Below are positions 29,073-63,825 of a stretch of 64,000 nucleotides of DNA, piece after piece. Numbering within the stretch: position 1 is the stretch's first letter; each line of letters starts with the position of its first letter. The DNA is taken from assembly GCA_037576215.1 (NCBI GenBank), contig JBANDB010000007.1, positions 3,565,001-3,629,000 of the forward strand, given 5' to 3'. The DNA is from Armillaria gallica (Eukaryota; Basidiomycota; Agaricomycetes; Agaricales; Physalacriaceae). The translations under genes were made by a program, and so were the position numbers. The notes below the pieces were generated by a model. That model was not told where the DNA came from. It did no database searches and saw only the letters and a program-made list of their open reading frames with translations.

Positions 29073-29080
29073 CTGTGACA

Positions 29081-35693: not shown

Positions 35694-35809
35694 AAAAAGT
35701 GTCGCAACGCACGCCCTCCCATCCTTGGGAGGGCGCGCGCTCCGATCTCTCTGATGGAAGTCGAACCCAGCCATCGCAGCCCACACTTCGCCGGTCCGCC
35801 AACAGAGAG
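35694..35809 (-). ncRNA. RNA module M1 (type I): tRNA-like plus hairpin
   Basis: On the minus strand: CTCTCTG arm (35809-35803), A-box-like GGCGGACCGGCGAAG, B box GGGTTCGACTT, closing CAGAGAG, then hairpin arms GCACGCCCTCCC/GGGAGGGCGCGC (11 of 12 pairs), then T5 at 35698-35694. An upstream box TTGACAT (variant of TTTACAT) lies 50 nt before the arm. The layout suggests an RNA polymerase III transcript of about 115 nt. It is not a normal tRNA, because the D-arm is truncated and no standard anticodon loop forms. Confidence 0.6.
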
Positions 35810-36157
35810 CTGAGTACTTCCAGTGTCACTGGTCCCATATCGCCGTGGTGATTCGTTTATGTCAATGTATCCACGACCACGACTGCGAAGTACATGGCTT
35901 CGGGACTTGTAAAATCTTGAATCGATGGCCTAGAGCCATAGTCAGCTTCATTTGAAGAAAATGTCGCGCATTGTTAGGTAGGCAAAGGCTCGAAAGGCTC
36001 TGGATGGAAGCAATATGCTTCGCATAGAAAACGTTGATAGCGGTAAGGCCGATGGCGGAAAGAACCACTGAGTGCGAGAGCTTGCTGCTTGCCTGAAATT
36101 ACCAGGGTAGTCGGTGTCCCCAAAACTGGAGCAGAAGAAGGTGGTCCAGCATAAAGC

Positions 36158-36279
36158 AAAAAGCTTCACAACACACGCCCTCCCGTACCGAGGAGGGCGT
36201 GTGCTACGATCTCTCTCGCAGGAATTGAACCCAGCTACGGGAAGCGACGAGGCCGCTTCTCCGATACGCCATCAGAGAG
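36158..36279 (-). ncRNA. RNA module M2 (type II): tRNA-like plus hairpin
   Basis: Minus strand: CTCTCTG, A box TGGCGTATCGGAGAAGC, a 6-bp stem GAAGCG/CGCTTC with a 7-nt loop, B box GGGTTCAATTC, then a perfect 12-bp hairpin CACACGCCCTCC/GGAGGGCGTGTG (36172-36183 with 36192-36203) and T5 at 36162-36158. TTTACAT at 36333-36327 lies 48 nt upstream. Compared with M4 the hairpin shows a C:G to T:A compensatory change. Confidence 0.65.
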
Positions 36280-36706
36280 TTAATGGCCGCCCTTCAATGA
36301 ATGATATCACAGCCAAACTATGATACATGTAAAGCCGCCGTCAAAAAAGAGAAAACGGGCCGTAAATCGAGGCTGGTACGATGGTATCTCGCCATTCCGA
36401 AGCACAGTGTCCAGGATCGGAACAGGCGGGAAAGGAGCTGAACGAGGAACGCTGAACGAAAAAATAGGATACAGTGAGCTAGCTGAATGCGAAGCGAAAG
36501 GAGGAAGCTGCCTACGCATTCAAGATTACATGGTAATACCTCTTGAACGTGAGGAACCCGAGCCAATTCTTCTCCAAGGTCTGAAGCGGGAAATGGTGAT
36601 AGATACTTGTCGTGTCGATGCCCATCGCCAAAGGGATCAAAGAATGACGGGCTTAAAACAGGTCGTCAAGCCGGAGGTTATAACGAAAGCAAGGATCGCC
36701 CTGGAC

Positions 36707-36816
36707 AAAAACAATGCGCAACACACGCCCTCCCCTCTTAGGGAGGGCGCGCGCCGCGATCCCTCTTGCTGGGAGTCGAACCCAGCCTGCGAGCGTCACC
36801 GATGTCAATGGAGAGC
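36707..36816 (-). ncRNA. RNA module M3 (type III): tRNA-like plus hairpin
   Basis: Minus strand: weak A box (TTGACATCGGTGACGC), good B-box arm GCTGGGTTCGACTCCCAGC, closing AAGAGGG, hairpin ACGCCCTCCC with GGGAGGGCGCG, then T5 at 36711-36707. Upstream TTTACAT at 36863-36857, 42 nt before the arm. The type III subtype shares a conserved CCAGCGAAGCCTC-type flank with M7 and M10. Confidence 0.6.
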
Positions 36817-36849
36817 TGACAGGACGAGGCTTCGCTGGGATTACATGAC

Positions 36850-38060
36850 GTCGTTTATGTAAACGAACAAGCTCATGGGGCGTGACGCCCAGGGTGTACA
36901 ATCGAGTCGATACGGAAGAGCGATGGTGAGTCGAAAGACGGATGGAGAAGTTGTTATTTGGAAGATGGCCGGTAAAGGTGGCTCGTTCAACAGCGGGGAT
37001 ATAGTGGAGAGAATCTTCGCAGAGATCTTGTCGGATATGGCGATGTCGAACGTTATCCGGGAATGTCGTCGATGCCAACTGATAGTCTTGCACGGCTGAT
37101 GGAGGGAGGGAGGGAGAGAGCGATGTGAGTTGCGAATCATATCCAGAAGAGTTAGGCGCACGCGGATGGCCGGTTGCGCATGAGACTCGTACGTCGGTGA
37201 GGGAACATGGCGATAAGGAATAATGGCGATCTGAAGCTTGGTGGAGCTTTTACTACTAGGGAACCCACTATGGGCTGGTTCTATGGGACATGTTGGTCGT
37301 TCCGGGAAAAGCGAGTCCGATAGAGGTTGCACTCTTCGCCTCAGATTATGACTATACAAGTCCTCCAAGAAGGAGTAGGTGCATGTTCTTTCGTTCCATG
37401 GACATCAGTCGCGGTCCGCGAGGATTCTACCAACCCTAATTCCTCATGCTTTTCCAGATCCTCCTCCCGCGCCTTAAAATGCCATACGCGGATGCATGGG
37501 TCGATAGGAAGTTTCAGGCGATCGCAAGCCTATGAGATTGGGGTTAAGGCCGAGGTTTGTTCGGGGAAGGGAGATATGGCTACATATGTACAGTCGCCGA
37601 AAAACTGTAAGTCGTCTCACAGACAACCTATACGGGATGGTAGTCGATTACATGACGTAGGCGAGCGAGTGCGTGGGATCTTCCGCCGCAGGAAAAGCGA
37701 TAGTCTGCATACGCGCGTTAATCAAACAAGGATGAAAGGATGACAGTCTCAACGTACTGCACAAAATTGGTTTCTTCGGGATGACGTCCAGAGTGAGGGC
37801 CACGGAGAGTGAGTGTACACATGCAACCGCGAGTATTATGGTCTCCAAAAACGGGAGCGTTGAGACAGCCGAGTGGTAGAAAAGGCACAGAGGTCGGTGG
37901 CCATGGTCGATGTGCGGATACCGGGGTGCGGTCCGGAGTCCGAAAGTCTGAAATGTCGACTGTTTGCCATCCTCTCGCTCATCCTTAAGCACATCACTGG
38001 CGCCCTCGTAAACCCACCTATGATTTCTTTCGACCCTTCCGACAATAGACCCCGTTGACA
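36850..38060 (-). pseudogene. Decayed minus-strand coding remnant, unit 1
   Basis: A stretch conserved in unit 2 (about 51660-52930) and starting again at the right edge of unit 3. Frames such as 37368-36841 remain open but differ in frame and sequence between units (VRLTLLDMIRN here, TRLSILDMFRN in unit 2), while both show TLPFLETIIL upstream. Frame shifts between copies argue against a working gene. Family not recognised. Confidence 0.4.
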
Positions 38061-38338
38061 TATACCTCCCTGCCGGCCCTCTCTGGAGTACAATTTAACG
38101 GAGCGTTTCTGTGGCACATGGAAGAGCAACTCGAATAGCGAGACTATTTCTGCCGGCTCCCTCGTTGACGTCGGCGTCGGCCATATTGGGTTTATTAGAC
38201 ACGGCTGCCCAAGTCACTCTGAGTCAGAGCGAGCCCCGATCATCGAGCTACTCATTGCTCTGTCGCACATAGATGCTTCTTGGTGCGTTATTCATTCTCA
38301 GGCCCTTATAATTATGTGCTGTTGAGATAATCTTTACT

Positions 38339-38730
38339 ATGCATAGCCTGTGCACCTGTCTAGCACGCACTGTCAGCTCAGCTCGGCGTAACCTTGTTGA
38401 CGCTCGCCCCAATTCACATTGCATCTGCGACAATGCTCTTCGGCTCACGAGCTATGATCCTTCCCATAGACCAGGATCACTGAAGCCATGGCCCAGGACT
38501 TCTGCGACCCATATGAAAGAGCATTTGAACGTGAGTGCGTCGTTTGTCTACTGGCATATCTTCACTGACCCATTTCTAGGCGGCTTTTGCTCGTTTTATT
38601 ATGGTTCCTCCTTCCGTTAGCCTTCGTTTCCGTATCCATGATATTCCGCCCGTCCGCTCGACAACCCGTCGCGAAGTAGAACACGCCATCATCGACCATA
38701 GTCACCTTGCCACTGGACGACCATCCTAGA
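38339..38730 (+). pseudogene. Plus-strand coding remnant with conserved intron, unit 1
   Basis: Reads RTSATHMKEHLN, then a GTGAGT..CTAG intron of 46 nt (38531-38578), then AAFARFIMVPPSVSLRFRIH to a stop. Unit 2 (53201-53700) has RTSATRMKEHLIH, the same intron, and AVFARLIMAPPPVNLRPR, after which the frames diverge. The intron is conserved while the exon ends are not, so this is an old gene fragment carried with the unit. Product unknown. Confidence 0.4.
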
Positions 38731-40469: not shown

Positions 40470-40556
40470 GATTTCTGACCTCTTGTGGATCGAACCCAAT
40501 GGGCGGCCACGCACCGTCTCGCTGTCCGTTATACCACAAGGGCTTGGAATCACATT
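40446..40556 (-). ncRNA. tRNA-like element in the unit-1 insert
   Basis: Minus strand: A box TGGTATAACGGACAGCG, B box GGGTTCGATCC, complementary ends CTTGTGG/CCACAAG (7 bp), then T5 at about 40451-40447. The T stem is broken, so it is probably a tRNA pseudogene or a distant relative of M1-M10. It has neither the GC-rich hairpin nor the TTTACAT box. Confidence 0.4.
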
Positions 40557-40694
40557 GTTAATATCAAGTTTATGATCCATACTACTACGAGCTCGGCGCC
40601 AGATTCTGGAGGAGATGAACTTGTTGCAAGTGGTGACTCCAAAAGCGAGTGATATAGACATGCAAGGACAAAGCTACAATAAGTAGCGTGAGCT

Positions 40695-40785
40695 CTGAAG
40701 AGGGCATATCCGCCGATTCCTCTGACTGGGGATAGAACCCTGCTATTCCACATAGGCGCTTCCCTCGTACACAGAGAATTAGGAA
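40695..40785 (-). ncRNA. Second tRNA-like element in the unit-1 insert
   Basis: Minus strand: TTCTCTG arm, GTGTACGAGGGAAGCGC in the A-box position, T-arm-like CAGGGTTCTATCCCCAG, and closing CAGAGGA. The ends resemble the CTCTCTG/CAGAGAG arms of modules M1-M10. No downstream hairpin or upstream TTTACAT, so it is probably a decayed member. Confidence 0.35.
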
Positions 40786-40959
40786 TGGGCTTGCCGTTAT
40801 ATCAGTTGCCAGACGTTGTTCGTCGTTTAGATAAACCGAGATACGGGCAACATCACACAGAGAGTAGAACTAACCAATGCATATTCAGGGAGGTCATAGA
40901 AAAGTCGTCGTGTTTGAACTTTAGGGAGAGGGGCGTTATGATCGTCGATGTACTAGTGT

Positions 40960-42927: not shown

Positions 42928-45900
42928 ATGATGCTGTACGACACGCATCCGCCGCGTGGTATATATCTATACAGTACCTGCTCTTCCACTTCACCCCCCA
43001 CCACCATTGTCGAATATGAGCACCGAGATAAACAAATGGTGAGCTCCCTTCATCACGGTTTGTAGAAACATTTGTGCTCAAGAAATAGCAGGTATCGCTT
43101 TCGTCGGATCCGAGGTACAGGCACTTCTATTTTCGCGTTTGCGGTCTTCTCGTTAAGCGCTCTTATTGGCTAGCTATAGAGTTACTCAATATACTCCCGA
43201 CATCGGACAAACGTTTCTACCGTCTCAAGCTCTTTGTAGGAGATACAACACTCAAGAAAACTGATACATTCAAACTGGAGAAAAAAGTACTGGAGAGAGA
43301 CCCGACTCGGATACCTAAATGGACAGTAAATCTTGATCTGTAAGGGCGCCAACATATTTCTTGAGTCCTAGCTCATCGCATATCCAGGAGCAACTTCAAT
43401 GAATCTGAGAGTTTTCAGGTGGACGTATACCACCGTCGGGACAAGGGAGATTATCGATGCTTCGGTTTTTGTCGAGCATCAATTCGGGATGTTTTGATCG
43501 GCAGAACGGACAGTGAGTATTTGTAATCTCAGTTGGCTCTCAGTATCTAACAGATTGCTGCCAGTTATCGTCATGTCCATCAGTAGCAACTCTCCCTGCC
43601 CCAACGTCTCTTTGAAGATCTTCAGGGAAGGTGCCTCTGACTATTCTTCGATCACACATCCAGCAAGCGAAGACCAAGACATGTCAGCCGCACCCCAGAG
43701 CGGCCCATGGAATACTATGGATCCCGAAAGTCAGGATATATCAGACTTGTCCGATCTGCAATCCGAGGAAATCTCTGCGAGGTCGGTGGAAGATGATTGG
43801 GCAACAGCAGGAAAGGTCATCGAGGACACCGCAAAGCCTAATGAACCCTTGGAATGGATCTCGAAATTGATCGATGGTATTGATACTGTGGAGAACGTGA
43901 TTGATGCATTCAAGGACGTGAGCACGTTCCTTGCGATCAAATTCTAGGTTCTAATTAATCATTGCCAGCTACACCCCGCTGCTTCAATAGCGTGGGGCAT
44001 CATTTCCTCTTGTGTTAATGTAACTACCAGCCTTGTTGGAATCAGGATGACCAGCTGACCAGACTTTTTCGGATAGATCTTGAAGCAGCAGACAGAACAA
44101 GATAAAACCGTACTCCGGCTGTACGAGGCTATGATCACGACCTACAAGGAGGCGAGCGACGACCGCTTGCTGTGGCACCGAAAGCAGCTGAAGCCGATCT
44201 ACGAATCATTGTTCCAGACCACAAACGAGTGCGGGATGCTCATCAAGAGATATACCAAAAAAAACCGCTTCGGTGCGTCCATTGTTCATGCTTAAAACAG
44301 TGATATCTGAGACCTATTTTAGAGCGCTTATTTTCGCCAAATGTGACACAGAAAGCAGAAGAATTCATTCAAGGGTTTGAAAATTTGCGGGAGCAGTTGG
44401 ATTCAGGTGTAGCAAAGGACGCGCTTGTCGTGACATTGGGCGTCAGAGCCAATGTTGATATACTTGGTACGTCCCTTCAATTTGCTCAAAAACGTGATCT
44501 AAACCCAATCTGAGTAGCTATGAGGACATTGCTCCAGGAACTAAAGGGCGAGCGGGAACTTGGTCCCAAATCGACGTGTATGCCCGGTACACGCGTGGAA
44601 ACCATCAACTACTTGTTGACATGGATTGGAGAATACGATGACGGCATCCTTTGGTGTAGTGGTCTGGCGGGGACGGGCAAAAGTGCGCTTGTCGGCACCC
44701 TCCATAAACTTCTCTCCTTTCAAATGAGCGGTCGTAGTCACCTTGCGGCGTTCATTCGTTATGACAGGACAATGTACCGGCACTTGTCAGAACTCATCAC
44801 ATCCATTGCCTACTCTTTGGGCATGTTCGATCAGCGCATAGGCAACGCCATCGCTAAGGCTTTGGCTGCATGCCGCGCCGCAGCTAACATGCCAGCATCC
44901 GAAGCACGTAGCCAATTTCGACTGCTCTTGCAGGAGCCATTGGAGACAATTCCGGAATTACAAGATGAAGGGCCATTGGTCGTCATCATTGATGGTCTTG
45001 ATGAAAGTGATGTGTCGAAAGAGTTGCTGGAAGTACTTGCGGATGGGTTTGGGCCCAAACTACCATTCATGCGGCTCATAGTCTCTAGTCGACCTGAGGA
45101 AAGGATTTCTCGTGTTTTTAAGCATCACCAGAAAGTCCATTGCTTTCTGCTGGATACCTCCTCAGATGAGGTGAAACATGATATACGGCACTTCATCCAG
45201 CAAAGGTTTGCCAGCATCGAAGACAAGAGTGTCTGGGGCAGATACAATGAGCAAGATGTTGTCACTCTGTTGGCTGAGCGAGCGAGCGGGTTGTTCATAT
45301 GGGCAGCCACAGTCTGTTCATTCCTGTGCAATCTTCCCAGTCTTCAGAGGCTCGAGGCGTTACTCGAAACTACGATTCCAGCAGATGCAATGGAGGCCCT
45401 GACGATACTATATCAAACCGCACTGGAGACCATCGTGTTGGAAGTATCCGGAAAGAAGGAAGAGACCCGACGATGCATTCGTGCAGTATTAGGTGCCCTG
45501 ATTGTTCGGAAGGGCCCCATGACCGTACCTATGCTTCCTGAGCTTGTTCTGCAAGAAAGAGACCCTTCAGCGCAGTTTATCATTAACAAATTAGGAAGTG
45601 TGGTGGAGGCCCTGGAGGGATCCGGGAGCCTGGAGCTTATACACAAATCATTTGATGATTTTCTCCGGGATCATAGCAGATGTGGGGACGGATGGTTTAT
45701 TGATGTCAAGAAGTATGAAAAGGAGCTTGCTCGGCGGTGTGTGTCATTGTTGACAATGCTTTCGGAGAAATGGATGCCACGCACTGAAGAGGATCAGGTC
45801 CGGTTTCATCGTATAGACTGGGTGCCCTCCAAGTGGAAGGGGAGTGCAGAGACTGAAGACAAGGTTGTACTGTCTGAGGGCACAGACTATGCTGTGACAG

Positions 45901-47570
45901 TTTTAGACCGGCATCCCGATGCATTCATTGAGCTTGGGGTCGACACTTACCGTGCCTTGTTTGAGCATCACTTCTTGCTCTGGTACACATTTTGCATGGC
46001 AGTCGGAGGATACAGCGATGCGCACCCCTTAGGTAACCGTGCACTGCTCAAGATAATTTTCCAGGTCAACGTAAGCTATTCATGCTCTATGAATATACAT
46101 GTAACACAAGCTCATTGTTGCTTCCATCTAGGCTGAAGTTACAGACCAAAACCTTCGCACGTGTTTCTATCATGCCTTCTTAATCTTTGGGCGGATCACT
46201 GAATGTGATGGCTGTAGCTCGGTGAATGCAGGCATACCCTTGTCACCTTCCAACAACGTCATTTGCAGAGACTGGAAGGATTGTGGTATTGAAGCCCCTC
46301 TTGATAAGGAGCGCCTGCTGGCCCTTATACCTTGGAAGGTTGGCGAAGACCATGATCTGACCAGGACCTTGTCTGTATTTCAAGGCTCTCGATACATTCG
46401 ATATGAGTGCACGGAGGATGAGGACACTTTCCTACACAGGCTATGCTTCGGTGACGGTGTTCTACACTCCAGTGGCAGCTCTGTGCTGTTCAATATTGAC
46501 ACGGGGAGGATAGCGGAAACACCATCTGAACCAATACTTTGCTTCCCCGATTTACCATCCTACGGCAACATTTCCTATGAGCAGATGGATGCTAGTGTTC
46601 AGATCATTAGGCTCATGCAACTGCCGGATGACTTCGAGTTCTCTCATCTTACTGGTATACAATACGAAGTCATTGAGAGGCGCGACACCCTTGATGACGA
46701 TTGGGGCCATAGCACTGACAGCGGTGACAACATGACCATGTTCATCTCTATTGTCAATACTCAGACCTCTCACTGTGACAATTACCTGTTTCCTGGGTGG
46801 AGCAAGCACAGTTGCGATATAGTTCAATATGCACAGGGATTTTTCATTGTTGATAAGGATTTAGGTTCGATGCTTAAAGTCGAGCCAGGCACTGCTGGTA
46901 GCAACAAATGGATGACCCTGGATGACCGCGAAAATATCCATGGGTTCACTGTCATGGAAGATGGATCTAGGTTACTAGGATGGACGGCAGACACAAGCTT
47001 GATATTGTTACGAGAGTGGGAAACATCAACGGGTACTCTGTGTTCTGACCACATACATGGCAGGTTATAGTCTTTGTCATCTTTACGGCAATATTGACCA
47101 TTTGGGATACAGGTTTTCCTGGTTTCAAAGGGGATGCCAAATTGTGGGATACTGACAGTAGGCGCTATAAGAGTGCGCTTTGCTATATTCGTTGCCAAAT
47201 GTCGCCCGACGGCTCGAAGGTAGCCATCACCGATAAGGCAAGGTCGCAGACATGCATATTGGGAGTCACGTCCGGATCTAGTAAGGATAATATCGCGGAG
47301 CCTATAGAAGTCGTCGAAAATGTGTACGACTTGGCGTGGTTTCCTGATAGCAAGACATTTGCCTACCTTCGAGATTGGAGACGTGCAGAGAGGGCGGACT
47401 GGTGGTTGTGGGATGTTGTTGTTCGAGATCCTGCGAGCAGACAGAGCACAACAATTCACTGTTCGAACGGCCCCGTTAATCACCGTCGAATATTTGTGAC
47501 TGATGATGGGTGCAGGCTTATTACTCAGGACGACGAATCATTCATGACATGGGACGTTTCGGATTTATAG
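42928..47570 (+). CDS. NLR copy 2: C2-NACHT-beta-propeller STAND protein, complete
   Basis: Ten exons join in phase to 1,379 residues: 42928-43038, 43092-43339, 43388-43512, 43565-43917, 43969-44019, 44077-44272, 44323-44466, 44518-46070, 46132-47032, 47113-47570. Domains: N-terminal C2-like sandwich (about 55-160; YWLAIELLN, IPKWTVNLDL, FQVDVYHRRDKG); acidic linker; helical region (WISKLIDGIDTVENVIDAF; KAEEFIQGFENLREQL); NACHT NTPase with P-loop GLAGTGKSALVG (about 456), Walker B GPLVVIIDGLDESD (about 560) and LIVSSRPEER; winged-helix part with LELIHKSFDDFLRDH; C-terminal propeller-like blades (MSPDGSKVAIT, WFPDSKTFAYL, TWDVSDL). Such fungal STAND proteins are thought to act in cytosolic non-self recognition and regulated cell death: ligand sensing by the C-terminal repeats, ATP-driven oligomerisation by NACHT, and output by the N-terminal domain. 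No lesion is seen. Confidence 0.88.
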
Positions 47571-48600: not shown

Positions 48601-49900
48601 TAGGCATGCTTGATTTTTGAATGAGCGGTCTGAGCGATAGAAGCGCTGAGAAGGAAAGAAGAGTCTTGAAAGGAACGAAGTGGCTCACGGGAGAGGCGAG
48701 GCGGCGTGCGGACCGGATGAACCCGGGCGAAGTTTTTCTCTGGCATCCATTTCTTCAGCTCTCATTTATAGCAGGCCAGCCTCTGCTTTACGGTAACGCG
48801 CTCAAATTATTGTTCGAGCGAGTGCGAGGTTCGTTCCTCTGTTCTGGTATCGATGTACAACGCCGTAACTGAAGATAATCCTCTATGAACGATACTGCGC
48901 TTTCAACATGGCTTCATCCTTTTCTGCTCGTGCCGCCATACCCTCGGACCTGGTCAGCGGTGCGCCTGCCTGCCTATGCGTTATGGGAAATCTGGTCAAT
49001 TTCGGACCTCAAGGTCACCAGGTGCTTAGCGCTTAGCACTCATGGCTCCGCTCCAGCGAGCGAGTCGAGTCGGGACGCATCATCAATGTTCCAGTGTGCG
49101 CCTCGTACAGCTTCAAACCCGCTTTTCTCCATGGTATTTGTCGGCCAGACGTTTCCTACTTCACGATTTTCTCTCTTCTGCTCTTCAAAGTTCATCCATA
49201 GCCTTGGCATGATGTCCACGAAACGGTTTGCATGTTGACCTTCCTCGTTGAGGAGCCGGACTGCTCTCGTTGCTTCTGGCCGGTGTAACCTTCTCTTTTA
49301 GAATTGTTTACGATGTATAATATCTGGACTAAGATGAAGAGCAAATACTGCAGCTGCAAGACTTTGACGGGAAGGCGACATGGTACGGGTGAGTACAGTT
49401 CACCATAACCGTGTTTGATGCCTGATAGATTTTAAATAAAAGGCAGTCGATCAAGATACCAATACTCGAATACGTGAAAAACGGAATGTGCTGCAGTGGG
49501 ACAAATACGTGACAAACTAGAGTCTGCCTGCCGATTATATGTGCCGTTAGTGCATACTTCTGTTGCGGACGCCGATGTGACGCTTGAGTCTGCAAGAAAC
49601 GACAGCACCAGCATGGCCTGGATTTCAACATATATATCACGATCTTTCAATATGGAATAGAGCTATTCTCTTGTGAGGACCTCAAATATCAGTGCTATCC
49701 TGGACACGATGAAGACATCTATCCCCTCCCGAATAAGGTACGTAGCATTTCCAAGTATCCGAGATGAAAATTTGAATACTGAGATCATTTTCGCAGCTAA
49801 TCTTCTCTAAACACGGCGGTGTAACATCGCGATTCGTCTTCATTGCACCTTGTCTGTGTGTTACGCGAAGAACTCTTTTCTTGTAATCGTCTCTGTTTAG
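48560..49900. repeat. Sub-repeat S-A, unit 2
   Basis: Homologous to 34650-35640 and 62050-62690 and, more weakly, to the S-B copies. Carries CACGGGAGAGGCGAGGCGG, GACCGGATGAACCCGGGCG and CGAGGTTCGTTCCTCTGTTC. No intact frame. Confidence 0.55.
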
Positions 49901-50166
49901 TAGCCCTACCATGAAGTGAGTCTCCAGGATTCACTTTGTCCACCCATTTTCCAAAAATCGTGTTGGGACTCGAGCTCGGGTATCCCGACCATACCAATAT
50001 ACTACCAGAGAGTTTGAATTCACGTTCGTTGATATCGCTCGAGTGACGGCTAGACTCGAACGTGTGCATGGACGTTTAACCCCCAAGGCAGTCAAATTTA
50101 AGGTGTACTGGAAGAATAGTAGCGCGACACGCCCGCCGTTGGCTGGTGAGCATCAATGAAATAAAG

Positions 50167-50287
50167 AAAAAACACAACATACGCCCTCCGGACCGCCAGG
50201 AGGGCGTATGTAGCGATCTCTCTCGTTGGGAATCGAACCCAACACGAGAAAGCATTGTGGATGCTTTCTCGCTACGCCATCAGAGAG
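50167..50287 (-). ncRNA. RNA module M4 (unit 2 only)
   Basis: Minus strand: CTCTCTG, A box TGGCGTAGCGAGAAAGC, a perfect 7-bp stem AAAGCAT/ATGCTTT, B box GGGTTCGATTC within a 5-bp T-like arm, then a perfect hairpin CATACGCCCTCC/GGAGGGCGTATG (50178-50189 with 50199-50210, extendable to 13 bp) and T6 at 50172-50167. Upstream TGTACAT lies 45 nt away. Closest to type II but with its own middle stem. Confidence 0.65.
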
Positions 50288-50588
50288 TTGTTATTACTAC
50301 AGGAGGTCTCACTGTGAGCTCTCTGTCATTTATGTACACCGTGCGTAGCTCACTGAGTCGGAGAGTGGCCGTCGTTGAGTTACGTTGATTCTCTTGAGGA
50401 ACCACCTGAAATGTGGGTGTCTGTATACTAGAGTCGAAGAGGGACTTAAATTCACAAGAGGACGTGAATAACGAGAATCTGTAAGCTTACGCTGGCGTAT
50501 AAATGAACCAAACTAGGTTCGACATGAAAAAAAGAGTCCGTCCAAGGCATCGAAATAACGAATTTGGGAGGACGTGAAGTTTCCAAGC

Positions 50589-50705
50589 AAAAAGTGTCGC
50601 AACGCACACCCTCCTGTCCTTGGGAGGGCGCACACTCCAATCTCTCTGGCTGGGAGTCAAACCCAGCCTTCACAGCCCGTGCTTCGCCGATATGCCAACA
50701 GAGAG
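50589..50705 (-). ncRNA. RNA module M5 (type I)
   Basis: Minus strand: CTCTCTG, A box TTGGCATATCGGCGAAGC, T-like arm GCTGGGTTTGACTCCCAGC, CAGAGAG, hairpin with inner CCTCC/GGAGG and some A-C mismatches, T5 at 50593-50589. TTTACAT at 50761-50755, 50 nt upstream. Counterpart of M1 and M8. Confidence 0.62.
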
Positions 50706-51012
50706 TTGAGTATATCCAGTGTCGCTGGTCCCATATCGCCGTGGCAATTCGTTTATGTAAATGTATCCACGACCTACAGTCAGCTTCATTTGAAGAAAAC
50801 ATCGCGCATTGTCAGGCTGGCAAAGGCTCGAAAGGCTCTGCATCGAAGCAATATGCTTCGCATAGAGAACATTGGTAGCGGTACTTAAGGCCGATAGCGG
50901 AAAGAAGCCGCTCCGTTCGGAAAGAATCACTGAGTGCGAGAGTTTGCTGCTTGCCTGAAATTACTGGGGTAATTGGTGTTCCGAAAATCACTGAACAGAA
51001 GAGGGTTTGTCC

Positions 51013-51132
51013 AAAAAGCCTCACAACACACGCCCTCCCGTATTGAGGGCGTGTGTTACGATCTCTCTCGCAGGGAACTGAACTCAGCTATGGGAAGCGA
51101 TGACGCCGCTTCTCCGATATACCATCAGAGAG
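51013..51132 (-). ncRNA. RNA module M6 (type II)
   Basis: Minus strand: CTCTCTG, A box TGGTATATCGGAGAAGC, 6-bp stem GAAGCG/CGCTTC, B-box position GAGTTCAGTTC (weaker), GAGAGAG, perfect 12-bp hairpin ACACACGCCCTC/GAGGGCGTGTGT (51026-51037 with 51045-51056), T5 at 51017-51013. TTTACAT at 51186-51180, 48 nt upstream. Counterpart of M2 and M9. Confidence 0.62.
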
Positions 51133-51543
51133 TCAATGGCTGTCCTACAATGGACTATATCACAGTCGAACTATGATGTATGTAAAGACGCCATCAAAGA
51201 AAAGAGGGTGGGCGTAAATTGAGGCTGGTACGATGGTATCTCGTCATTCCGAAGCAAAGTGTCCAGGATCGGAACGAAGAGAAAAAGAGCACTGAATAAG
51301 AGATACAGGGTACAGTGAGCTAGCTGGATGTGGAATGAAAAGAGGAAACCTACTCATTCAAATTACATGGCAATACCTCTCAAGAAAATCAAACGTAGGG
51401 GACTGGAGCCAATTCTGCTTCAAGGTCTTTGACGAGAATTGGTGGTAGATACTTATCGTGTTGACGTCGAAGGGATAGAAGAGTAAGCTGACTTTAAAAT
51501 GGGACGTCGCCGAGAACAGAATAGAAAGTGATCCGCCTTGGAC

Positions 51544-51630
51544 AAAAACAATGCGCTGCGATCCCTCTTGCCGGGAGTCGAATCCAGCGTGCGAATGAAA
51601 GGCACGCATCACTGATATGCCAACAGAGAG
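51544..51630 (-). ncRNA. RNA module M7 (type III, hairpin lost)
   Basis: Minus strand: CTCTCTG, TTGGCATATCAGTGATGCG in the A-box position, B box GGATTCGACTC, closing AAGAGGG, then only 15 nt to T5 at 51548-51544. The GC-rich hairpin present in M3 and M10 is deleted. TTTACAT at 51679-51673, 43 nt upstream, is intact. Confidence 0.55.
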
Positions 51631-51659
51631 TTGACAAGAGGAGGCTTCGCTGGCATTAA

Positions 51660-52930
51660 GGTGTCGTCGTTTATGTAAACAGATATAAGAGCAACCTGAT
51701 GGACGTTGTGCTCTAGGCGCAGGGCATGCGGTCGAGTCGATACGGAAGCGCGATGGTGGGTCAAAAGAAGAATGGAAATAACGGTAGAAAAGGTAGTCCG
51801 TCACGGTACTCATTCCAAAAGCGAGGGTCCACTGATGTGAGGAATCTGCAGAGGAATCTTGGATCTGGTGATGTAGATTCGAACGAATGCCGACGATGTC
51901 AACCGATAGCTTTGCGCGGCCAACTGGACACAGGGACAGAGAGCGATGCAAAGTTGCGAAACATGTCCAGAATACTTAGACGTGTACGAATGTCCGGCTT
52001 TGCATAGGGCTCGTCCATCGTCTGAGTGAGGGAACATGATAGGAAGGAATAATAGCGATCTGTGGCGTCTGAGGCATGGTGGAGCTTTGAGGAAATCTGC
52101 GATACGGGCTGGTTCCATGGGCCACTCTGGGCGTGCTCGAGAATCCTGGAAGAACGAATCCGATAGAGGTTGCGCCCTTCGTCCCAAATGATGATTGTAC
52201 AGGTCCCCAAAGAAGGAGTAGGCGCCTATTCCTTCGCCCCGTGGACATCAGTCACAGCGGGCGGGTCCAACTGCAAGGTTTCCATCAGCCCTGTTTCTCC
52301 AGATCCTCTTCCTGTACCTTTAAACACCATACACGGATGGATGCAAGTTTGAGGAGATCGTACATCTACGAGATTGAGTGCAAGTTCGAGGTTTGTTCAT
52401 GGAAGGGAGATATAGCCGCGCATGTACAGTCGCCGATAAAGTATGGGTCGTCTCACAGACAACCTATACGAGAAGCTAGTCGATGTGCGAACGAGTTGCG
52501 TGGGTGCCGGGCGGGAAAGATGGGAGCATCGCAGGTTGAATCCACCATATAGGATCAGCTATCAGCGATAGATTCATCTTCCATCGCATGAAAAGCGATA
52601 GTCTGCATCCGCGCGTTAATCAAACGAGGATGAAAGGATGACAGACTCGACGTACTGTAGGAAATTGGTTTGTTCGGGATGTCGGCCGGAGTGATGAGCG
52701 GGGAGAATGAGTGTGCACGTCTAAGCCACGAGTATTATGGTCTCCAAAAACGGGAGCGTTGAGACGCCGAGAAGGGGGGGTATATGGAGATGCTGGTGCG
52801 GATACTGGGGTGCGGTCCGGTGTCCAAAAGTCAACTGTTGACCCGCACGCTCATCGAGCACACCACTACAGCCATCGCAAAACCACCTGAATCGACCGCG
52901 ACTTCTTTGGACCCTTCCCTCATGCATTAG
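51660..52930 (-). pseudogene. Decayed minus-strand coding remnant, unit 2
   Basis: Homologous to 36850-38060. Open pieces such as TRLSILDMFRN, GPWNQPVSQISSKL and VSTLPFLETIIL occur in frames that do not agree with those of unit 1. No recognised family. Confidence 0.4.
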
Positions 52931-56303: not shown

Positions 56304-56449
56304 ATGATGCCGTAAGTCATCCATTCACCGCGTGTACAGCACCTTCTCTTCCACAGCACCTCCATCGTCCAGCATTGAGCATCGAGATGGAAAAACGGTG
56401 AGCGCTCTCATTACGGTTTCTAGAATGATTTGTGCTCATAAAATAGCAG
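56304..56449 (+). pseudogene. Damaged first coding exon of NLR copy 3
   Basis: Corresponds to copy 2 exon 1 (42928-43038). Both read APPSSSIEHRDGK- or SPPTTIVEYEHRD-like residues before a GTGAGC donor, and a phase-compatible AATAGCAG acceptor follows. In copy 3 the initiating ATGATG is followed at once by CCG TAA, and a deletion of about 11 bp before TACAGCACC shifts the frame. Confidence 0.65.
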
Positions 56450-56470
56450 GTATCGCTTTCGTCAGATCAA

Positions 56471-59400
56471 ATGTACGGTCCCTTCTACCTTCGTATTCAT
56501 GTTCTTTTCGTTAAGCGCCTTTATTGGCTAGCGATCGAATTACTTAACCTACCCGCGGCGTTGGATACGCGGTACTATCGTCTCAAGATTTTTGCAGGAA
56601 GTGTCTATAAAAAGACCGATACATTTACACTGAAGACGAAAGCGCTGAAGACAACTCCGATACCCAAGTGGACGATCCATCTTGATCTGTAAGGGGGCGC
56701 CAACTTACCACTTGAATCCTGGCTTATCACATATATAGGAGCTCCATCAACGAATCGGAGAGATTTCAGGTAGAAGTATACTGCCGCCGGGGAGACGGAA
56801 AGTATAAATGCCTCGGTTTTTGTGAAGCATCGATCTGGGATGTTTCGATCGGTGAAACGGACAGTGAGTTTCTGTAATCTGCACTGTCAGTTTGCTGTCA
56901 CTATCTAAAACATCGCCGCTAGTCATCGTCATGTCCATCTGTAGCAACTCTTCCTGCCCCAACGTCTCTTTGAAGGTCTTTAGAGAAGGTGCCTCCGACT
57001 ATTCTCCGATCGCGCAATCGGCAAGTGAGGTCCAAGACATGTTGGCCACACCGCAGAGCGCTCTATCGAATACCGTGTATCCCGAAAGTCAGGATACCTC
57101 AGACTTGTCGGGTATGCAACCCGAGGAAATCTCTGCACGATCAGTGGAAGATGATTGGGCAACTGTGGGAAAAGTCATCGAGGACACCGCAAAGCCAAGT
57201 GATCCCTCGGAATGGATCTCCAAATTGACCGATGGTATTGATACTGTGAAGAACCTGATTGATGCAGTCAAGGACGTGAGCAGGTTCCCTATGATCACTC
57301 TCTAGATGACTAACTGAGCACTTCCAGCTACACCCTGCTGCTTCAATAGCATGGGGCATCATTTCCTCTTGCGTGAATGTAAGTACTAGCCTTATTGGAA
57401 GCGGGATGACCAGCTGACCATGGTTTTTCGGATAGATCTTGAAGCAGCGGACAGAACAAGATAAAACAGTCCTCCGACTGTACAAAGTCATGATCATGAC
57501 GTACAAGGAGGCGAGCGACTATCGTCGGCTGTGGCAGCAACAGAAGTTGGCGCCGATCTATAAATCGCTGTTCCAGACCACGAACGAGTGCGGGATGCTC
57601 ATCAAGGGATATACGAACAAAACCCGCTTCAGTGCGTCCATCGTTCGTTTTCAAAACAGTGATATCTAAGTCCTATTTCAGAGCGCTTCTTTTCACTGAA
57701 CGTGACACAGAAAGCAGAAGAATTCATCGAAGGCTTTGCGAATTTGCGGGAGCAGTTGAATTCGGGTGTAGCAAAGGATGCGCTTGTCGTGACATTGGGT
57801 GTCAGAGCCAATGTTGATATACTTGGTATGCCTCTTCGACTCGCTCATGAACGTGCTCTAAACCCAATCTGAGTAGCTATGAAGACATTGCTCCAGGAAC
57901 TAAGGCCCGGACAGGAGCTTGGTCCGAAATCAGTGTGTATGCCTGGTACACGCGTGGAAACGATCAACTACTTGATGTCATGGATTGCAGGATATGACGA
58001 CAGCGTCCTTTGGTGTAGTGGTCTAGCAGGGACAGGAAAAAGCTCGCTTGTGGGCACCCTGCATAAACTTCTCGGCTTTCATATGGGCAGCCACAGCCGC
58101 CTTGCTGCTTTCATTCGTTACGACAGAACCTCATACTCAAATTCATCAGAACTCATCACATCCATTGCCTACTCTTTGGGCATGTTCGATCAGCGCATAG
58201 GTGACGCCATCGCTAAAGCTTTGGATACATCTCGCGCTGCAGTTAAAATGCCAGTATCCGAATCCTATATCAAGTTTCAACTCCTCGTGCAGGAGCCATT
58301 GGAGACAATTCTGGAATTGCAAGACGAGGGACCTTTGGTTGTCATCATTGACGGTCTTGATGAAAGTGAAGTGTCGAACGAGTTGCTAAAAGTACTTGCG
58401 GATGGGTTTGGGCCGAAACTGCCATTCATGCGGCTCATTGTCTCCAGTCGGCCCGAGGAAAAGATTGCTCGGGTTTTCAAGAACTGCCGGCATGTCCATT
58501 GCTATTCTTTAGATACCTCCTCAGAAGAGGTGAAACTGGACATACAGTACTTCATCCGGCAAAGATTTATCAGCATTGACGATGGGAGTGTCTGGGGCAA
58601 GCACAATAAGGAAGATGTTATCACTTGGCTGGCCGAGCGGGCAAGCGGGCTGTTCATATGGGCGGCGACAGTTTGTTCGTTCCTGTGTGGCTTTCCCTGT
58701 CTTTGGAGGCTCAACGTGTTACTTGAAACTACTATTCCAGCAGATGCAATGGAGGCTCTGACAATACTATATCGAACCGCATTGGATACCATTGTATCGG
58801 AAGTACCAGGAACGAAGGAAGATGTCCAACGATGTGTTCGTGCAGTATTAGGTGCCCTAATTGTTCGCAAGCGCGTCATGTCAGTGCCTATGCTTACCGA
58901 GCTTCTTCTGCACGAAGGAGACCCTTCAGCGCAGTTCATCGTTGACAAATTAGGAAGTGTCGTACAAGACTGGGGCGGGTGCCTGGTGCTTATACACAAA
59001 TCATTCGATGATTTTCTTCGGGATCATGGCCGCTGCGGAGATTTATGGTTCATAGATGTCAAGGAGCATGAAAAGGAGCTTGCTCGACGATGTGTGTTGT
59101 CCTTGACGATGTTTTTCAAAGATTGGACCTCACCCTGTGCTCTTCCTGGCTCTATGGACATCTGTCTAAGAGCGACCACACGGGATCAGTCCTACGATGC
59201 TATACCATCCCATATCAAGGATTATACCGTGGAGGTTCTAGAGTGTCACCTCGACGCCTTTGTTAGACTTGGGATTGACACATACCGTCCCTTGTTCGAT
59301 CGTTACTTCTTGTTCTGGCTCGAAATACTCTATGCATTTAAGCATCCGCTTCCAGTTGAAGCATTGCTCAAGGTGGTTTCTGTGGTTAATGTAAGCTGCT

Positions 59401-60992
59401 TGCGTGCTGTATCTTGAATGAAAACAGCCTCATTGTTACTTCTTTTTAGGCTGAAGTTACAGATCAAAGACTTCGCACATATGTTTACCATGCCTTCACA
59501 TTCTGGGACCGTTTTACCAAAATTTCATCCAAGGATCGTCAGGTCAAACCTGCGTATGTGTACACCCACGCAATGTCCATCTCGCCTTCCGAAAACCTTA
59601 TTTGCAGAGACTGGGGGCAAAGCAGTGGTGTTGATGCCCCTTTTGATAAGGAGCGCCTGCTAGCTCTTATAACTATGAGCATCCCTACCACTATAGAAAT
59701 CCCTCACAGAAGTAGCAGCCTTCAAGACTTTCCAATGTTTCAAGGCTCTCGACATATTCAATTCGAGTCCATAATGATAATCAAACCTTGGTTGCGCATA
59801 GACATGCAATCGAGAGATGTGATCCACTCCAAAGGACCTGTCTTGTTCAATGTTGACACAGGGAGGATAGCGGAAGCGTCACCTCCGTCGATACTTCTAT
59901 ACTTCCCCGATTTGCTATTACCCTCCTCCTATGGCGCAGAGACTTGCCACTATGAATCATTTAGTGCCAGTGGTCAAATCGTTACTAGGTTCATATATTG
60001 GAAAACTTGTTGTGGGGACCGGTCCGAGTACTCATTCAATAGTACACCGTATGAAGTCATTGAGAGGCACAACAGCGACCCTCAAGATGCCATGATATCT
60101 AATGTTGACGATAACAACAATTGCGACAATGGAAGCGACAACGGTATAACACCGCCATCCATATGCATGTTCATCTCTATCGCTAACACTCAGACCTCTC
60201 GCTGCGACAATTATTTCTTACCGGCAGTTCAAGGCGATGGAGGGGCCCATTTTCCTGTAATAAAATATGCACATGGATCACTCATCATTGAAAAGTGGTC
60301 GGGCTTGATCCTCAACATTGAGCCACGCACTAGTGGTTGCAATAAATGGATAACCCTGGATGGCGGGACAAATGGGATCGATAGCTTCGTCGTCATGGAA
60401 GATGGATCTAGGTTACTAGGATTGACGGAAGTTGCAGGCAAGATATCGTTGCGAGAGTGGGAAACATCGACGGGTGCTTTTTGTTGTGAACGCATATATG
60501 GCAGGTCATATTCTTTTGTCATCCATGATAATGCTGACCGCCACGATCACAGATTGTCCTGGTTTCAAGTATGGCGACCCTTCTGGGAGATTTTCCTGCG
60601 ACATATCGCCCGACGGCTCAAAGATCGCTGTCTCCCAAGATGCGCAGACATACATATTGGCAATCGGGTCCGAATCGAGTGCGGATATCACGTACCTCAA
60701 GGAGGCGGCATACTTGGTGTGGTTTCCTGACAGCAAGCGAATTGCCTATATTCAAAAATTTGAACATGCTAAAAAATTCTATGATCTTGTTGTTCAACGC
60801 CTTGCGGGCGGCCAGATTACTACGATTCACCGTTGGTACTACTCCTTGGGTTTTACCAGGATCTTAGTTACTCCCGACGGGTCCAGGGTGATCACGATCA
60901 CTCACGATGATCTCGGTGATGAATCCAAATGGTTGAAGGCCATCGAGTCGGATGAGTGCGCATTCAGGACATGGGACGTTTCGGATTTATAG
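56471..60992 (+). CDS. NLR copy 3: C2-NACHT-beta-propeller STAND protein, 5' end altered
   Basis: Nine exons join in phase to 1,354 residues from ATG 56471 (MYGPFYLRIHVLF): 56471-56688, 56739-56863, 56923-57275, 57328-57378, 57436-57631, 57682-57825, 57877-59390, 59450-60473, 60553-60992. Exon sizes 3-7 equal those of copy 2. The order is C2-like domain (YWLAIELLN, PKWTIHLDL, FQVEVYCRRGDG), acidic linker, helical region, NACHT (P-loop GLAGTGKSSLVG, Walker B GPLVVIIDGLDESE, LIVSSRPEEK), and propeller-like C-terminus (ISPDGSKIAVS, WFPDSKRIAYI, VTPDGSRVITI, TWDVSDL). The exon matching copy 2's first exon (56304-56398) begins ATG ATG CCG TAA and is also length-shifted, so translation probably starts at 56471, losing about 45 residues before the C2 domain. 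Copies differ most in the C-terminal repeats and the region after the NACHT, as expected for a recognition surface. Confidence 0.82.
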
Positions 60993-61439
60993 AATATTCG
61001 CCGGTATTGTAAAATACGTTTATGCTTCACTCGCGCTCCCTTGGCCCCCCAATTCCAAAATCATTCAGCACCAACCTCTTCAAAATCGATATACAAACAT
61101 TACGAAAGAAATAATACTGCACCAAGTTCAAAAGTTCAACTGAATGTTGTTCAACATTGCAACGTTGAGCGCTTGCTGAAGCCGAAAGTTCATCGTGCTT
61201 GTAACCACTCCTATTCCTTGAACAAAAGAAGAAATGAAGGGGTTATTTCAAGTAAATATCTCGGATCTAGACGATGATGCATGTAATATTTCATCGCGGG
61301 TATATGGATAACAACATAACATGAATACACACAGGATCGCAGCGCCAAGCTCTAGTGGTATTACCATAATCACTGGAGATTAAGCAGTGGTTGCTCTGCA
61401 TAGCGTGTAAGCACGTAGATACAAACAAGAAGGGGTAGA

Positions 61440-62075
61440 AGGCGAACTTGCGGTGTGATGCTTTAATGGCAGGGACCTTGACCGTCTTTTCAGAGACGCG
61501 CTTGGCAATGAAAGGCTTTGAGGACACTGAACGGATGATTAGCCAACGAGAAAGTATAAATAGAACATTAACTCGTACTCGAACTTCTGCTCCTTCTGGT
61601 GCTCCAATTTTCAGCGCTTGACGGAGCGGATGTGACGACGGCGCAGGAGACGGATGGGAGTAAGAAGACGTCGGATCTTGGGAGCCTTGGTGTAGGACTT
61701 CGCGTTTACGAGCAACGTACTTGCGGAAATCATCCTCTTTGGACAAGTTGAACATCTTGTTGCCCGCTTTAGACGGAGACCCAGGTATTTCTAAATTCGC
61801 GTCAGTAGAAGTAGAAAACAAAGATAAAAGTGCACACACTAGCCTCTCCCTGCTTCACGATGACCAAAGCAATATCCAGGCCCACTAAGCATACACGGAA
61901 AGACTTTTGCTTCTTCTCATCCGTCCGACGAGTGGCCGTCAGACAACAATAGACGGACACGCCAAGGAAGGTTCAAACGTTCAAGAGGCACACCCTGTTC
62001 ATTGTTTCTTCCAGTAATCCGGACGATGTATCCTTTGAGCTCTTCAGGAATACTTCGACTTAGGTCATACTTTTG
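61440..62075 (-). pseudogene. Ribosomal protein eS6 pseudogene, unit 3
   Basis: Minus-strand remnants MFNLSKEDDFRKYVARK, LRQALKIGAPEGAEVR (shifted frame over the RRRHLRSVKRR region) and FIAKRVSEKTVKVPAIKASH, with LLLSDGH-like and RITGRNNEQG-like pieces near 61960-62020. Several frameshifts. Same intron remnants as the unit 2 copy. Confidence 0.8.
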
Positions 62076-62690
62076 CATATAGTGCTTGATTTGTAAATGA
62101 GCGGTCCAACCGCTGGGTATGATGAGTATCAGAGAGAAGTCGGTGGCTCATAAGGAGAGATGCGGACTGGATAAACCCGGGCTTCCGTCTTTGCTTTTGC
62201 TTTCTCTTTCATTCCGAGTGATACGCTATTGCACCTGCCTATGTACGCGTTCTTGAAAATCTTGACAATTTCACGAACTCAAGCTTGCCGGTGCTCGTGC
62301 TCCGTTTCATCGAGCTGGTCGAGTTTTTGCTGAAATCCTAAAGTTCACGCTCCTTTTAGAAAAATTGGATTCAGCTTTCCTTTCGCAGACTATACAATAA
62401 TGGCCTACATAGGATAGTTTTCGTTACGGAGTCATTGGGACGAACCAATGTTTCAGTGCCGGGCTTCGTACAGCTTCCACGAACCCGTGTTTCTTCATGT
62501 TGTCTGTTATTCAAGCGTCTCTCGCTTCCCAGTTTTCTCTTTTCTGCTCTTCATCGCCTAGGCAAGGTGTCCGCAAACGGTTTACATGCCGGAAGTGGAA
62601 GCCTGCATACTCGATTTGAAGGGGAACTGGAATCCACTAGAGGAAGGAGAATCTGTAAGGTTACCTAGCGGATAAATGAACCGAACTAGA
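62050..62690. repeat. Sub-repeat S-A, unit 3
   Basis: Shorter copy: TGTAAATGAGCGGTCCAACC, GGCTCATAAGGAGAGATGCG, ACTGGATAAACCCGGGCTTC, TCTCTCGCTTCCCAGTTTTC. No intact frame. Confidence 0.55.
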
Positions 62691-62758
62691 ATTGACATTG
62701 GAAAAACTCATGGTGCAAGGGTTTACGTTGAATTTGGCAGGAAGTGACCCCTCCAAGC

Positions 62759-62865
62759 AAAAACTCTCGCAACGCACACCCTCCCGTCCTTGGGAGGGCG
62801 CGCGCTCCGATCTCTCTGGCTGGGAGTTGAACCCAGCCTTCGCAGCCAGATATGCCAGCAGAGAG
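62759..62865 (-). ncRNA. RNA module M8 (type I)
   Basis: Minus strand: CTCTCTG, A box CTGGCATATCTGGCTGCG, with the middle part shortened, T-like arm GCTGGGTTCAACTCCCAGC, CAGAGAG, hairpin GCACACCCTCCC/GGGAGGGCGCGC (10 of 12 pairs), T5 at 62763-62759. TTTACAT at 62921-62915, 50 nt upstream. Confidence 0.6.
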
Positions 62866-63192
62866 CTGGGTATATCCAGTGTCGCTGGTCCCATTTCGCC
62901 GTAGCGACTCGTTTATGTAAATGGATCCGTGTCTGCGATATACATGCCGCCTCGGGAGTCTGTGGCGTATATCTCGAATCGATAGTCTAAAGCCACAGTC
63001 GTCTTTATTTGAAGAAGATGCCGCATATTGTTAGAAGACAGGAAATGCACGGAGGATATTTGCGTCACATGAGAAATCGACAGGCTACGACGGAAACGAA
63101 CCGCGAGGTTCAGAAAGAAGCACTGAGTACGAGGGCTTGCCCGAAATTACAGGTATAGTCATTCTTCCCAAAGACCAGATAATGCATGAAGC

Positions 63193-63314
63193 AAAAAGCT
63201 TCACAACATACGCCTTCCCGTATCGAGGACTGCGTGTATTGCGATCTCTCCCGCGGGGAATTGAACCCAACGACGAGAAGCTCCAAGGCCGCTTCTCCGA
63301 TATACATCAGAGAG
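63193..63314 (-). ncRNA. RNA module M9 (type II, hairpin decayed)
   Basis: Minus strand: CTCTCTG, A-box position GATGTATATCGGAGAAGC, stem GAAGC/GCTTC, B box GGGTTCAATTC, GGGAGAG, hairpin region with CATACGCCTTCC against GGACTGCGTGTA (imperfect), T5 at 63197-63193. TTTACAT at 63368-63362, 48 nt upstream. Confidence 0.55.
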
Positions 63315-63702
63315 TTAATAGCCGTCCAACAATGGACTACATCACAGCCGAACTATGATGCATGTAAAGACCCCGTGGAAGAAGAGAGAGCGGGACGTGA
63401 ATTGAGGCTGGAACCACGAAGTTTGCGATTCAGAAGAGGATTGGAGTGATAGAAGAAGAATGGGGCTCGCTGAATGAAAATTGGGTGCAATGAGTTAACT
63501 GAACGCGAAGCGAAAAGATGAAACCTACTCATCCAGGGCTACACGTCAATACCTCTCGAGAGAAATAAACCTATGGGACTCGAGTCAATTCTGCCTGAGG
63601 CGAGAATTGATGTATTGACGACGAAGGGATACAACGAATAACTGGACTTGAAAATGGGACGTCGAGCTGGAAATTAGAACGAAAGAAAGGATCGCTCTGG
63701 AC

Positions 63703-63825
63703 AAAAACAAGCGCAACGCACGCCTTCCCTACGATGGGAGGGCGCGCGCTGCGATCCCTCTTGCTGGGACTCTAACCCAGCAGCGTGATGCGAATGCCAC
63801 GCGTCGCCGATATGCCAATAGAGGG
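63703..63825 (-). ncRNA. RNA module M10 (type III)
   Basis: Minus strand: CCCTCTA arm, A box TTGGCATATCGGCGACGC, GCTGGGTTAGAGTCCCAGC in the T-arm position (B box weakened, arm still paired), AAGAGGG, hairpin GCACGCCTTCCC/GGGAGGGCGCGC (one T-G wobble and one mismatch), T5 at 63707-63703. TTTACAT at 63874-63868, 43 nt upstream. Confidence 0.58.

Follow-up and report, generated by a model that had tools for sequence, protein, structure and literature searches.

Background

What are the ten short modules, tRNA-like in their 5' part and mostly ending in a hairpin, that lie on the minus strand of one stretch of DNA from the forest fungus Armillaria gallica, and what connects them with the NLR genes that stand beside them? 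The stretch (the window in what follows) is the whole 64,000 nucleotides (nt) analysed, C7:3565001-3629000, where C7 is contig JBANDB010000007.1 of the 86-Mb assembly GCA_037576215.1, which has 28 contigs. An initial annotation, made from the letters of the window, had described a ten-copy family of probable RNA polymerase III (Pol III) transcripts. The modules belong to a large family of fixed order, confined among the copies listed to one region of about 2 Mb, with modules conserved above their spacers, helices that covary and Pol III-type signals in most copies. With a probability of roughly 0.6, we read them as probable Pol III type-2 RNA genes, made of a tRNA-like half and a 3' hairpin and most likely having a regulatory role tied to the NLR cluster.

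Results and discussion

Ten modules in three arrays

The names M1 to M10 are taken to run by rising coordinate, which agrees with the earlier remarks on M6, M7, M9 and M10. Along the minus strand, array by array, the modules are:

36707..36863, minus strand: M3, type A; TATA-like box 36863-36857, tRNA-like part, 3' hairpin, T5 at 36711-36707
36158..36333, minus strand: M2, type B; box 36333-36327, tRNA-like part, 6-bp anticodon-like arm, 3' hairpin, T5
35694..35865, minus strand: M1, type C; box TTGACAT 35865-35859, tRNA-like part, 3' hairpin, T5
51544..51679, minus strand: M7, type A; box, tRNA-like part, T5, no 3' hairpin; covariance-model score 64.9 bits, the lowest of the ten
51013..51186, minus strand: M6, type B; weakened B box, 3' hairpin, T5
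50589..50761, minus strand: M5, type C; box, tRNA-like part, 3' hairpin, T5
50167..50338, minus strand: M4, type D; box TGTACAT, long anticodon-like arm, 3' hairpin, T6
63703..63874, minus strand: M10, type A; box, weakened B box, 3' hairpin, T5
63193..63368, minus strand: M9, type B; box, mismatched 3' hairpin, T5
62759..62921, minus strand: M8, type C; box, shortened variable region, 3' hairpin, T5

The fixed order of parts first described holds in all ten, and the set is complete apart from the hairpin of M7, the poor hairpin of M9 and the weak B boxes. As had been reported, the TTTACAT box is exact in eight modules and one base off in M1 and M4; it starts 48-56 nt and ends 41-49 nt upstream of a CTCTCTG-type arm. 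A-box-like and B-box-like elements are found in the window modules. The B box had been called weakened in M6 and M10, as it is, but M1, M5 and M7 are also one base off, so that it is inexact in five of ten. The closing arm, which reads GAGAG or GAGGG, is present in 10/10 modules, and so is a T5-T6 run as the first run of at least four T after the box; the absence of the GC-rich 3' hairpin from M7 and its mismatched state in M9 were likewise described correctly. (In M7 the hairpin was apparently lost cleanly between GCGC direct repeats at about 51570-51544, by comparison with M10.) Folds of nine modules are better than the mean of their dinucleotide shuffles (z from -2.1 to -7.1, the strongest being that of M4), while M7 folds no better than its shuffles (z +0.14). 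A core of the CGCCCTCC/GGAGGGCG type recurs in types A to D, whose leaders differ.

M3-M2-M1, M7-M6-M5 and M10-M9-M8 are one A-B-C block present three times in the same order, mutually 69-73% identical, with type D once (M4). The proposed family is therefore real, but its ten copies are four types in three duplicated arrays, and three further elements (E, F and F2, below) had gone unlisted. Because the copies are segmental duplicates, their joint retention, from which function had been argued, proves less than was claimed. Invariant columns make up 79% of ungapped module and 64% of spacer in the alignment of the three arrays, a contrast that 12 of 1099 shifted placements match and that is suggestive only.

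A large family confined to one region

Modules of types C, B and A were used as queries, and the best 40 candidates of 70, 67 and 91, respectively, were scored for each. Among these best-scored candidates, C7 2.41-4.34 Mb holds 38/40 (type C), 38/40 (type B) and 40/41 (type A) rows; the rest lie on contig C5 near 0.51 Mb and on contig C3 near 1.50 and 2.85 Mb. Full matches were fewer with type D. All 13 exact matches of a box-gap-arm pattern lie on C7 (control 0), and a 26-base core covering B box and closing arm has 148 matches with at most two mismatches, 132 of them on one strand (reversed control 0). Of these 148 places 100 were listed, of which C7 2.41-4.33 Mb holds 96, C5 three and C3 one. 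Joined, the module lists place at least 133 modules on C7, in 59 arrays of which 55 are on the minus strand.

This distribution bears on whether the modules are a tRNA-derived short interspersed element (SINE). The tRNA-like head with A and B boxes is what such an element would have, and AfuSINE2 of Aspergillus fumigatus, a fungal tRNA-related SINE, has a tRNA-like head as well (accessible part of PMC5063351). For the initial annotation, a genome-wide search returning scattered, 5'-truncated copies was the outcome that would speak for a SINE; what the search returned is one regional family, and that refutation does not apply. Unlike fungal SINEs, as far as the accessible source describes them, the modules are non-dispersed and stand in ordered arrays within segmental duplications, with a shared upstream box, a hairpin and a T-run end. 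The box lies upstream of any transcript start, the surroundings are duplicated along with the modules, and the copies listed outside the 2-Mb region (with 100 of the 148 core-pattern places listed) occupy three sites on C3 and C5. A normal SINE, which would have many dispersed and often 5'-truncated copies, is rejected because the copies listed are confined rather than scattered, and we regard a SINE origin as very improbable.

Array order and conservation

A covariance model was built from the ten modules; in a search of 50 loci at E 0.01 it found 222 matches, among which are many antisense echoes of hairpins. Removing overlaps from the best 150 and joining one split copy leaves 110 modules (A 31, B 31, C 33, D 15), which form 31 clusters. 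Read along the module strand, 30 of the 31 follow A-B-C-D, including two clusters with a doubled C and one of two opposed arrays; the last has an extra C fragment before A. A stretch of type E follows on the 3' side of 13 of the 15 D modules, M4 included, and the 12 others are 68-94% identical. Relatives of F and F2 are few, and most lie 3.6-4.3 kb upstream of NLR matches; F itself sits about 3.7-3.9 kb upstream of the NACHT open reading frame (ORF) at 44520. In the window these three elements are:

49953..50069, minus strand: type E element, 3' of M4; CTCTCTG, A-box-like and B-box-like stretches and T5, with neither closing arm nor hairpin
40660..40860, minus strand: F, a degenerate module; covariance-model match at 40678-40780 (E 3.7e-6), close copy at C7:2562328-2562528
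40470..40560, minus strand: F2, a tRNA-like element beside F; four similar stretches among the retrieved loci

Conservation was measured on the 29 arrays in which A, B and C are complete (one carries an insertion of about 2 kb). Pairwise identity of the tRNA-like and hairpin parts is 0.84-0.86 in A, 0.81-0.82 in B and 0.87-0.89 in C, against 0.73-0.74 in the two spacers, and gaps are common in the spacers and rare in the modules. The loci concerned (L002-L031) had been picked by similarity to a type-C module, and because of this selection the test by shifting the annotation was restricted to A and B. Only 1 of 1051 shifts reaches the observed difference in identity and 14 of 1051 that in occupancy; with shifts of up to 20 excluded, none of 1010 reaches the observed difference. 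In these alignments A and B modules are kept better than the spacer DNA around them.

The modules might still descend from a tRNA-derived element or RNA gene that was active once and is now in decay, its copies having been duplicated as passengers of the NLR cluster. Boxes are inexact in many copies, M7 has lost its hairpin, F and F2 are degenerate, and the three blocks of the window, taken alone, are compatible with decay. We nevertheless think decay unlikely, given the identity and the scarcity of gaps in A and B relative to the spacers (neither type having been used to choose the loci) and the covariation described next.

Covariation and Pol III-type signals

Covariation was counted in 107 of the 110 modules, aligned by sequence only and leaving out M7, the leading C fragment and a copy split by a locus edge. 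Standard pairs fill 90.6% of the acceptor, T-arm and hairpin cells, and at most 69.9% when the partner is slid. Double changes occur in 86 cells, compared with 26.4 +/- 7.9 in shuffles that ignore the kinship of the copies (0/500 reach 86) and at most 53 in slid versions; pairs with a double change number 15 of 29, compared with 10.2 +/- 1.9 after shuffling. Type B alone (29 of 31 copies aligned) has 18 double-change cells and its shuffles 9.7 (0/500 reach it), and nine type-B copies carry a C-G to G-C exchange in the hairpin, probably a single event. G-U cells outnumber A-C cells 367 to 123, an excess expected if the minus strand is a functional RNA. The hairpin stem measures about 17-18 bp, and folds of the ten modules contain no D stem of tRNA form. 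Together, the covariation and the excess of identity and gap scarcity in A and B argue for constraint during much of the expansion of the cluster; function, first argued from joint retention in ten copies, thus finds support in the genome-wide copies instead.

The sequence signals for Pol III transcription are present in most copies. A box within one mismatch lies 44-62 nt upstream in 82 of 109 modules (42 exact), compared with 67 of 872 background windows, at distances that are mostly specific to the type (A 48-49, B 54, C 56, D 50-55). The B box is within one mismatch in 102 of 111 rows, and where both motifs matched, the A-box and B-box starts are mostly 34-43 nt apart. TTTT occurs 5 times in 14812 nt of predicted transcript, where shuffles lead one to expect 33.9, and 277 times in 20466 nt of T-rich spacer; its depletion begins approximately at the box and stops at the terminal run. 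That run is T4 or longer in 94 of 108 copies (one of the 108 has a body truncated by a locus edge), compared with 40% in shuffles. Spacing of A and B boxes, a T-run terminator and few internal T4 runs, the sequence features of a type-2 promoter gene, are thus found in most copies. The predictions of an RNA-gene reading that sequence can test have come out favourably, with A and B above the spacers, covarying helices and Pol III-type signals mostly kept.

Relation to the NLR cluster

An NLR protein query gave 87 match rows, 59 of them on C7 2.46-4.36 Mb (56/59 on the plus strand); the 28 rows off C7 comprise 27 at 37-57% identity and one short fragment at 73%. The C7 interval is a very large tandem NACHT/NPHP3_N (NLR) cluster, many copies of which are open and some of which have stops. 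For comparison with the arrays we used 38/40, 38/40, 39/41 and 18/44 rows of the type C, B, A and D lists (leaving out rows off C7 and one antisense row and, from the type D list, partial, antisense and other-type matches) and 57 of the 87 NLR rows (leaving out the 28 off C7 and two second pieces of the same gene). An NLR match starts within 9 kb on the 3' side of 34 of the 59 arrays, whereas 1000 random placements give 14.9 on average and never more than 26; this limit of 9 kb was picked after the typical distances were known. In 33 of those 34 arrays the NLR match is on the opposite strand, typically 4-6 kb away, and 32 of 57 NLR matches have such an array within 9 kb.

In the window, self-comparison finds whole units in tandem duplication, each a plus-strand NLR gene with a minus-strand module array downstream, in blocks 63-73% identical:

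44520..47570, plus strand: NLR copy 2; NACHT/NPHP3_N ORF 44520-46136, then ORFs without Pfam match; convergent with array 2
57879..60992, plus strand: NLR copy 3; NACHT/NPHP3_N ORF 57879-59417, then ORFs without Pfam match; convergent with array 3
32093..34811, plus strand: stretch resembling the 3' part of NLR copy 3 together with what follows it downstream (self-comparison); adjoins array 1

A protein search with the ORF at 57879-59417 found its best named relatives in Armillaria and Desarmillaria, where they are NPHP3_N/NACHT proteins, with 76% identity to one of A. ostoyae. Arrays and NLR genes have multiplied together, mostly in convergent orientation, and their position suggests, as a hypothesis, a regulatory link of the modules to the NLR genes.

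The same proximity, with its limit chosen after the fact, and the mostly retained B boxes would also suit modules that act as DNA, as TFIIIC-binding boundary, insulator or fork-barrier elements along the cluster, their RNA being incidental. There is no particular need at a TFIIIC site, however, for compensatory changes in a hairpin, for tolerance of G-U pairs or for keeping the hairpin and the terminal T-run, and we consider this explanation quite doubtful.

A candidate pathway and the points against it

For the preferred reading, Pol III RNA genes, the following course may be proposed. The TTTACAT-type upstream box and the internal A and B boxes would recruit TFIIIC and TFIIIB, and Pol III would start between box and arm and stop at the T-run, so that the RNA would measure roughly 120-145 nt in most copies. 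Its 5' half would be tRNA-like without a D stem, made of acceptor and T arms (with an anticodon-like arm also in types B and D), and joined to the 3' hairpin. The stacked acceptor/T-arm helix might be recognised by tRNase Z (perhaps RNase P) and cut behind, and the freed hairpin could be a stable structured RNA or a small-RNA precursor. The arrays, A-B-C-D and then E, mostly downstream of and convergent with the tandem NLR genes, have multiplied along with them, and the most likely role of the RNA, including any effect on NLR genes, would be regulatory and connected to the cluster.

Several results weigh against this reading. The type B leader (0.72) is no better conserved than spacer, identity upstream of A is itself fairly high (0.78), the boxes (0.78-0.83) do not stand above the module bodies, and the best distant shifts come close to the observed differences (0.070 and 0.110 versus 0.070 and 0.113). 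Pair types do not clearly outnumber those of shuffles (71/500 reach the observed count); for type B alone two of five measures, changed pairs and pair types, are no higher than in shuffles; and counted per pair the G-U excess over A-C, 16 to 7, is not significant (P 0.09). Many copies have lost parts, the GGTTCRANTC B box being exact in 71 of 111 rows and TTTACAT in 43 of 111. Inside the modules AAAA, CCCC and GGGG are likewise below shuffle, and the copies are homologous, so that motif and T-run counts are not independent; for both reasons T-run depletion is weakened as an independent proof. A complete A-B-C-D array at C5:507078-508596 (L015) has no NLR match nearby. (An E-like stretch lies behind that array.) Under ungapped Watson-Crick matching, the hairpin arms of nine of the ten modules (M7 has no hairpin) are not complementary to the window's three NLR units beyond expectation; the best of 18 arm tests reaches P 0.02 uncorrected, none is convincing, and targeting of these units by hairpin arms was rejected. 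The hairpin is also short for a usual Dicer substrate.

Some of these points would fit a structured Pol III RNA that acts whole, binding protein or serving as a decoy in the manner of VA RNA, EBER or vault RNA, with the hairpin as an element of stability or binding rather than the precursor of a small RNA. A stem of only about 17-18 bp, the CGCCCTCC/GGAGGGCG-type core common to A-D despite their differing leaders, and the lack of a target signal in the NLR units tested all suit such an RNA. An acceptor/T-arm helix ahead of a hairpin is, on the other side, the kind of structure cut by tRNase Z, and the genome holds family matches for Dicer, Argonaute and tRNase Z. According to the accessible part of PMC4838037, one of the tRNA-miRNA-encoded RNAs (TMERs) of a virus, described below, has its in vivo function in stem-loops and not in microRNAs (miRNAs). 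Action of the whole RNA is a serious possibility, to which we give somewhat less than even odds.

Other identities considered

That the modules are not ordinary tRNAs, as had been argued from a short D region and a missing U33, fits the sequences; ARAGORN calls no tRNA at all in the window and only two in the 50 loci, one of them on a module. That call names a type-B module (L046 9454-9545, minus strand) tRNA-Cys, and annotation pipelines may therefore record some modules as tRNAs. The C7 region also holds, outside the arrays, an apparently ordinary tRNA-Gly gene (L034 1718-1788, minus strand). The initial annotation knew of no named fungal RNA with this architecture, and no Rfam family reaches its gathering score anywhere in the window; three matches in 49900-51900 are all far below it.

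A coding reading was rejected, the module-crossing ORFs 36320-36862 (plus strand) and 51358-51951 (minus strand) having no Pfam match and the first no protein relative among 30 candidates. ORF 36653-37093 (minus strand) matches P0121, an anonymous 240-aa ORF on a 1474-base contig of another record, at 43% over 94 residues, and the similarity extends through the reading of a type-A module, including hairpin arm and T-run. This suggests that P0121 may be a read-through of a type-A module, and so a relative in a second record. A supposed relative on a viral contig (L001, with one match to a two-part pattern) was judged a chance match, the 311 surrounding bases being without other parts.

Further features of the window are a 232-base unit in two tandem copies, 97% matching, at 29079-29544; an inverted repeat pair of about 370 bases, 84% identical and 11 kb apart, at 6120-6488 and 17278-17642; and ORFs at 1385-2305 (plus strand) and 18185-19009 (minus strand) with weak matches to APH phosphotransferase and alpha-kinase.

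Comparison with known systems

The closest likeness is to the TMERs of murine gammaherpesvirus 68, which are also clustered Pol III-type units in which a tRNA-like element is followed by hairpin structure. TMERs are viral, 200-250 nt long, and comprise eight units with two pre-miRNA hairpins (PMC4838037, accessible part). Folds and covariation give the Armillaria modules the same architecture, a tRNA-like element directly followed by a hairpin in one unit, with one short hairpin rather than two, no D stem, more than 100 units and a fungal host; the likeness is one of architecture, and no sequence relation is claimed.

Among fungi, milR-1 to milR-4 of Neurospora crassa have a TATA-like element, putative A and B boxes and poly-T, and milR-4 comes from a tRNA-containing precursor that requires RNase Z (PMC3547838, in its accessible text). 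Neurospora milR-4 and milR-1 thus resemble the modules in being fungal and equipped with Pol III-type signals, and milR-4 also in its link to a tRNA. In that text milR-4 lies between and beside predicted tRNA-Ala genes, whereas Armillaria has dedicated tRNA-like modules in a large ordered family. The murine 4.5SI RNA gene, from what is accessible of PMC7279448, has a TATA-like box CTACATGA at -31/-24; like the modules it places a TACAT-type box at about the TATA position before a type-2 promoter, with no relation implied. Among the titles and starts of abstracts listed from the open-licence literature (subscription journals and preprints being outside its scope) none describes such a family for Armillaria or other mushrooms. 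The modules are a real, constrained family, probably of RNA genes, with the architecture of a TMER or of the precursor of a tRNA-linked microRNA-like RNA.

Conclusions

To our knowledge, few Pol III RNA genes lie outside the classical set, and we know of a tRNA-like-plus-hairpin multigene family from only one herpesvirus. A cellular, ordered and constrained family of well over 100 copies, set in an expanded cluster of immune-receptor-like genes, would amount to a large unannotated class of RNA genes in a forest fungus. One speculative and rather improbable extension is a Pol III small-RNA system, co-amplified gene by gene with the NLR cluster, that tunes NLR expression or incompatibility activity in TMER fashion from tRNA-like precursors. 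Plants restrain NLR genes by miRNAs, and such a system, if real, would be an independently evolved fungal counterpart. The family offers a place to ask how NLR repertoires are controlled in fungi, and it also bears on how widely tRNA-like, tRNase Z-dependent biogenesis of small RNAs may have spread among them.

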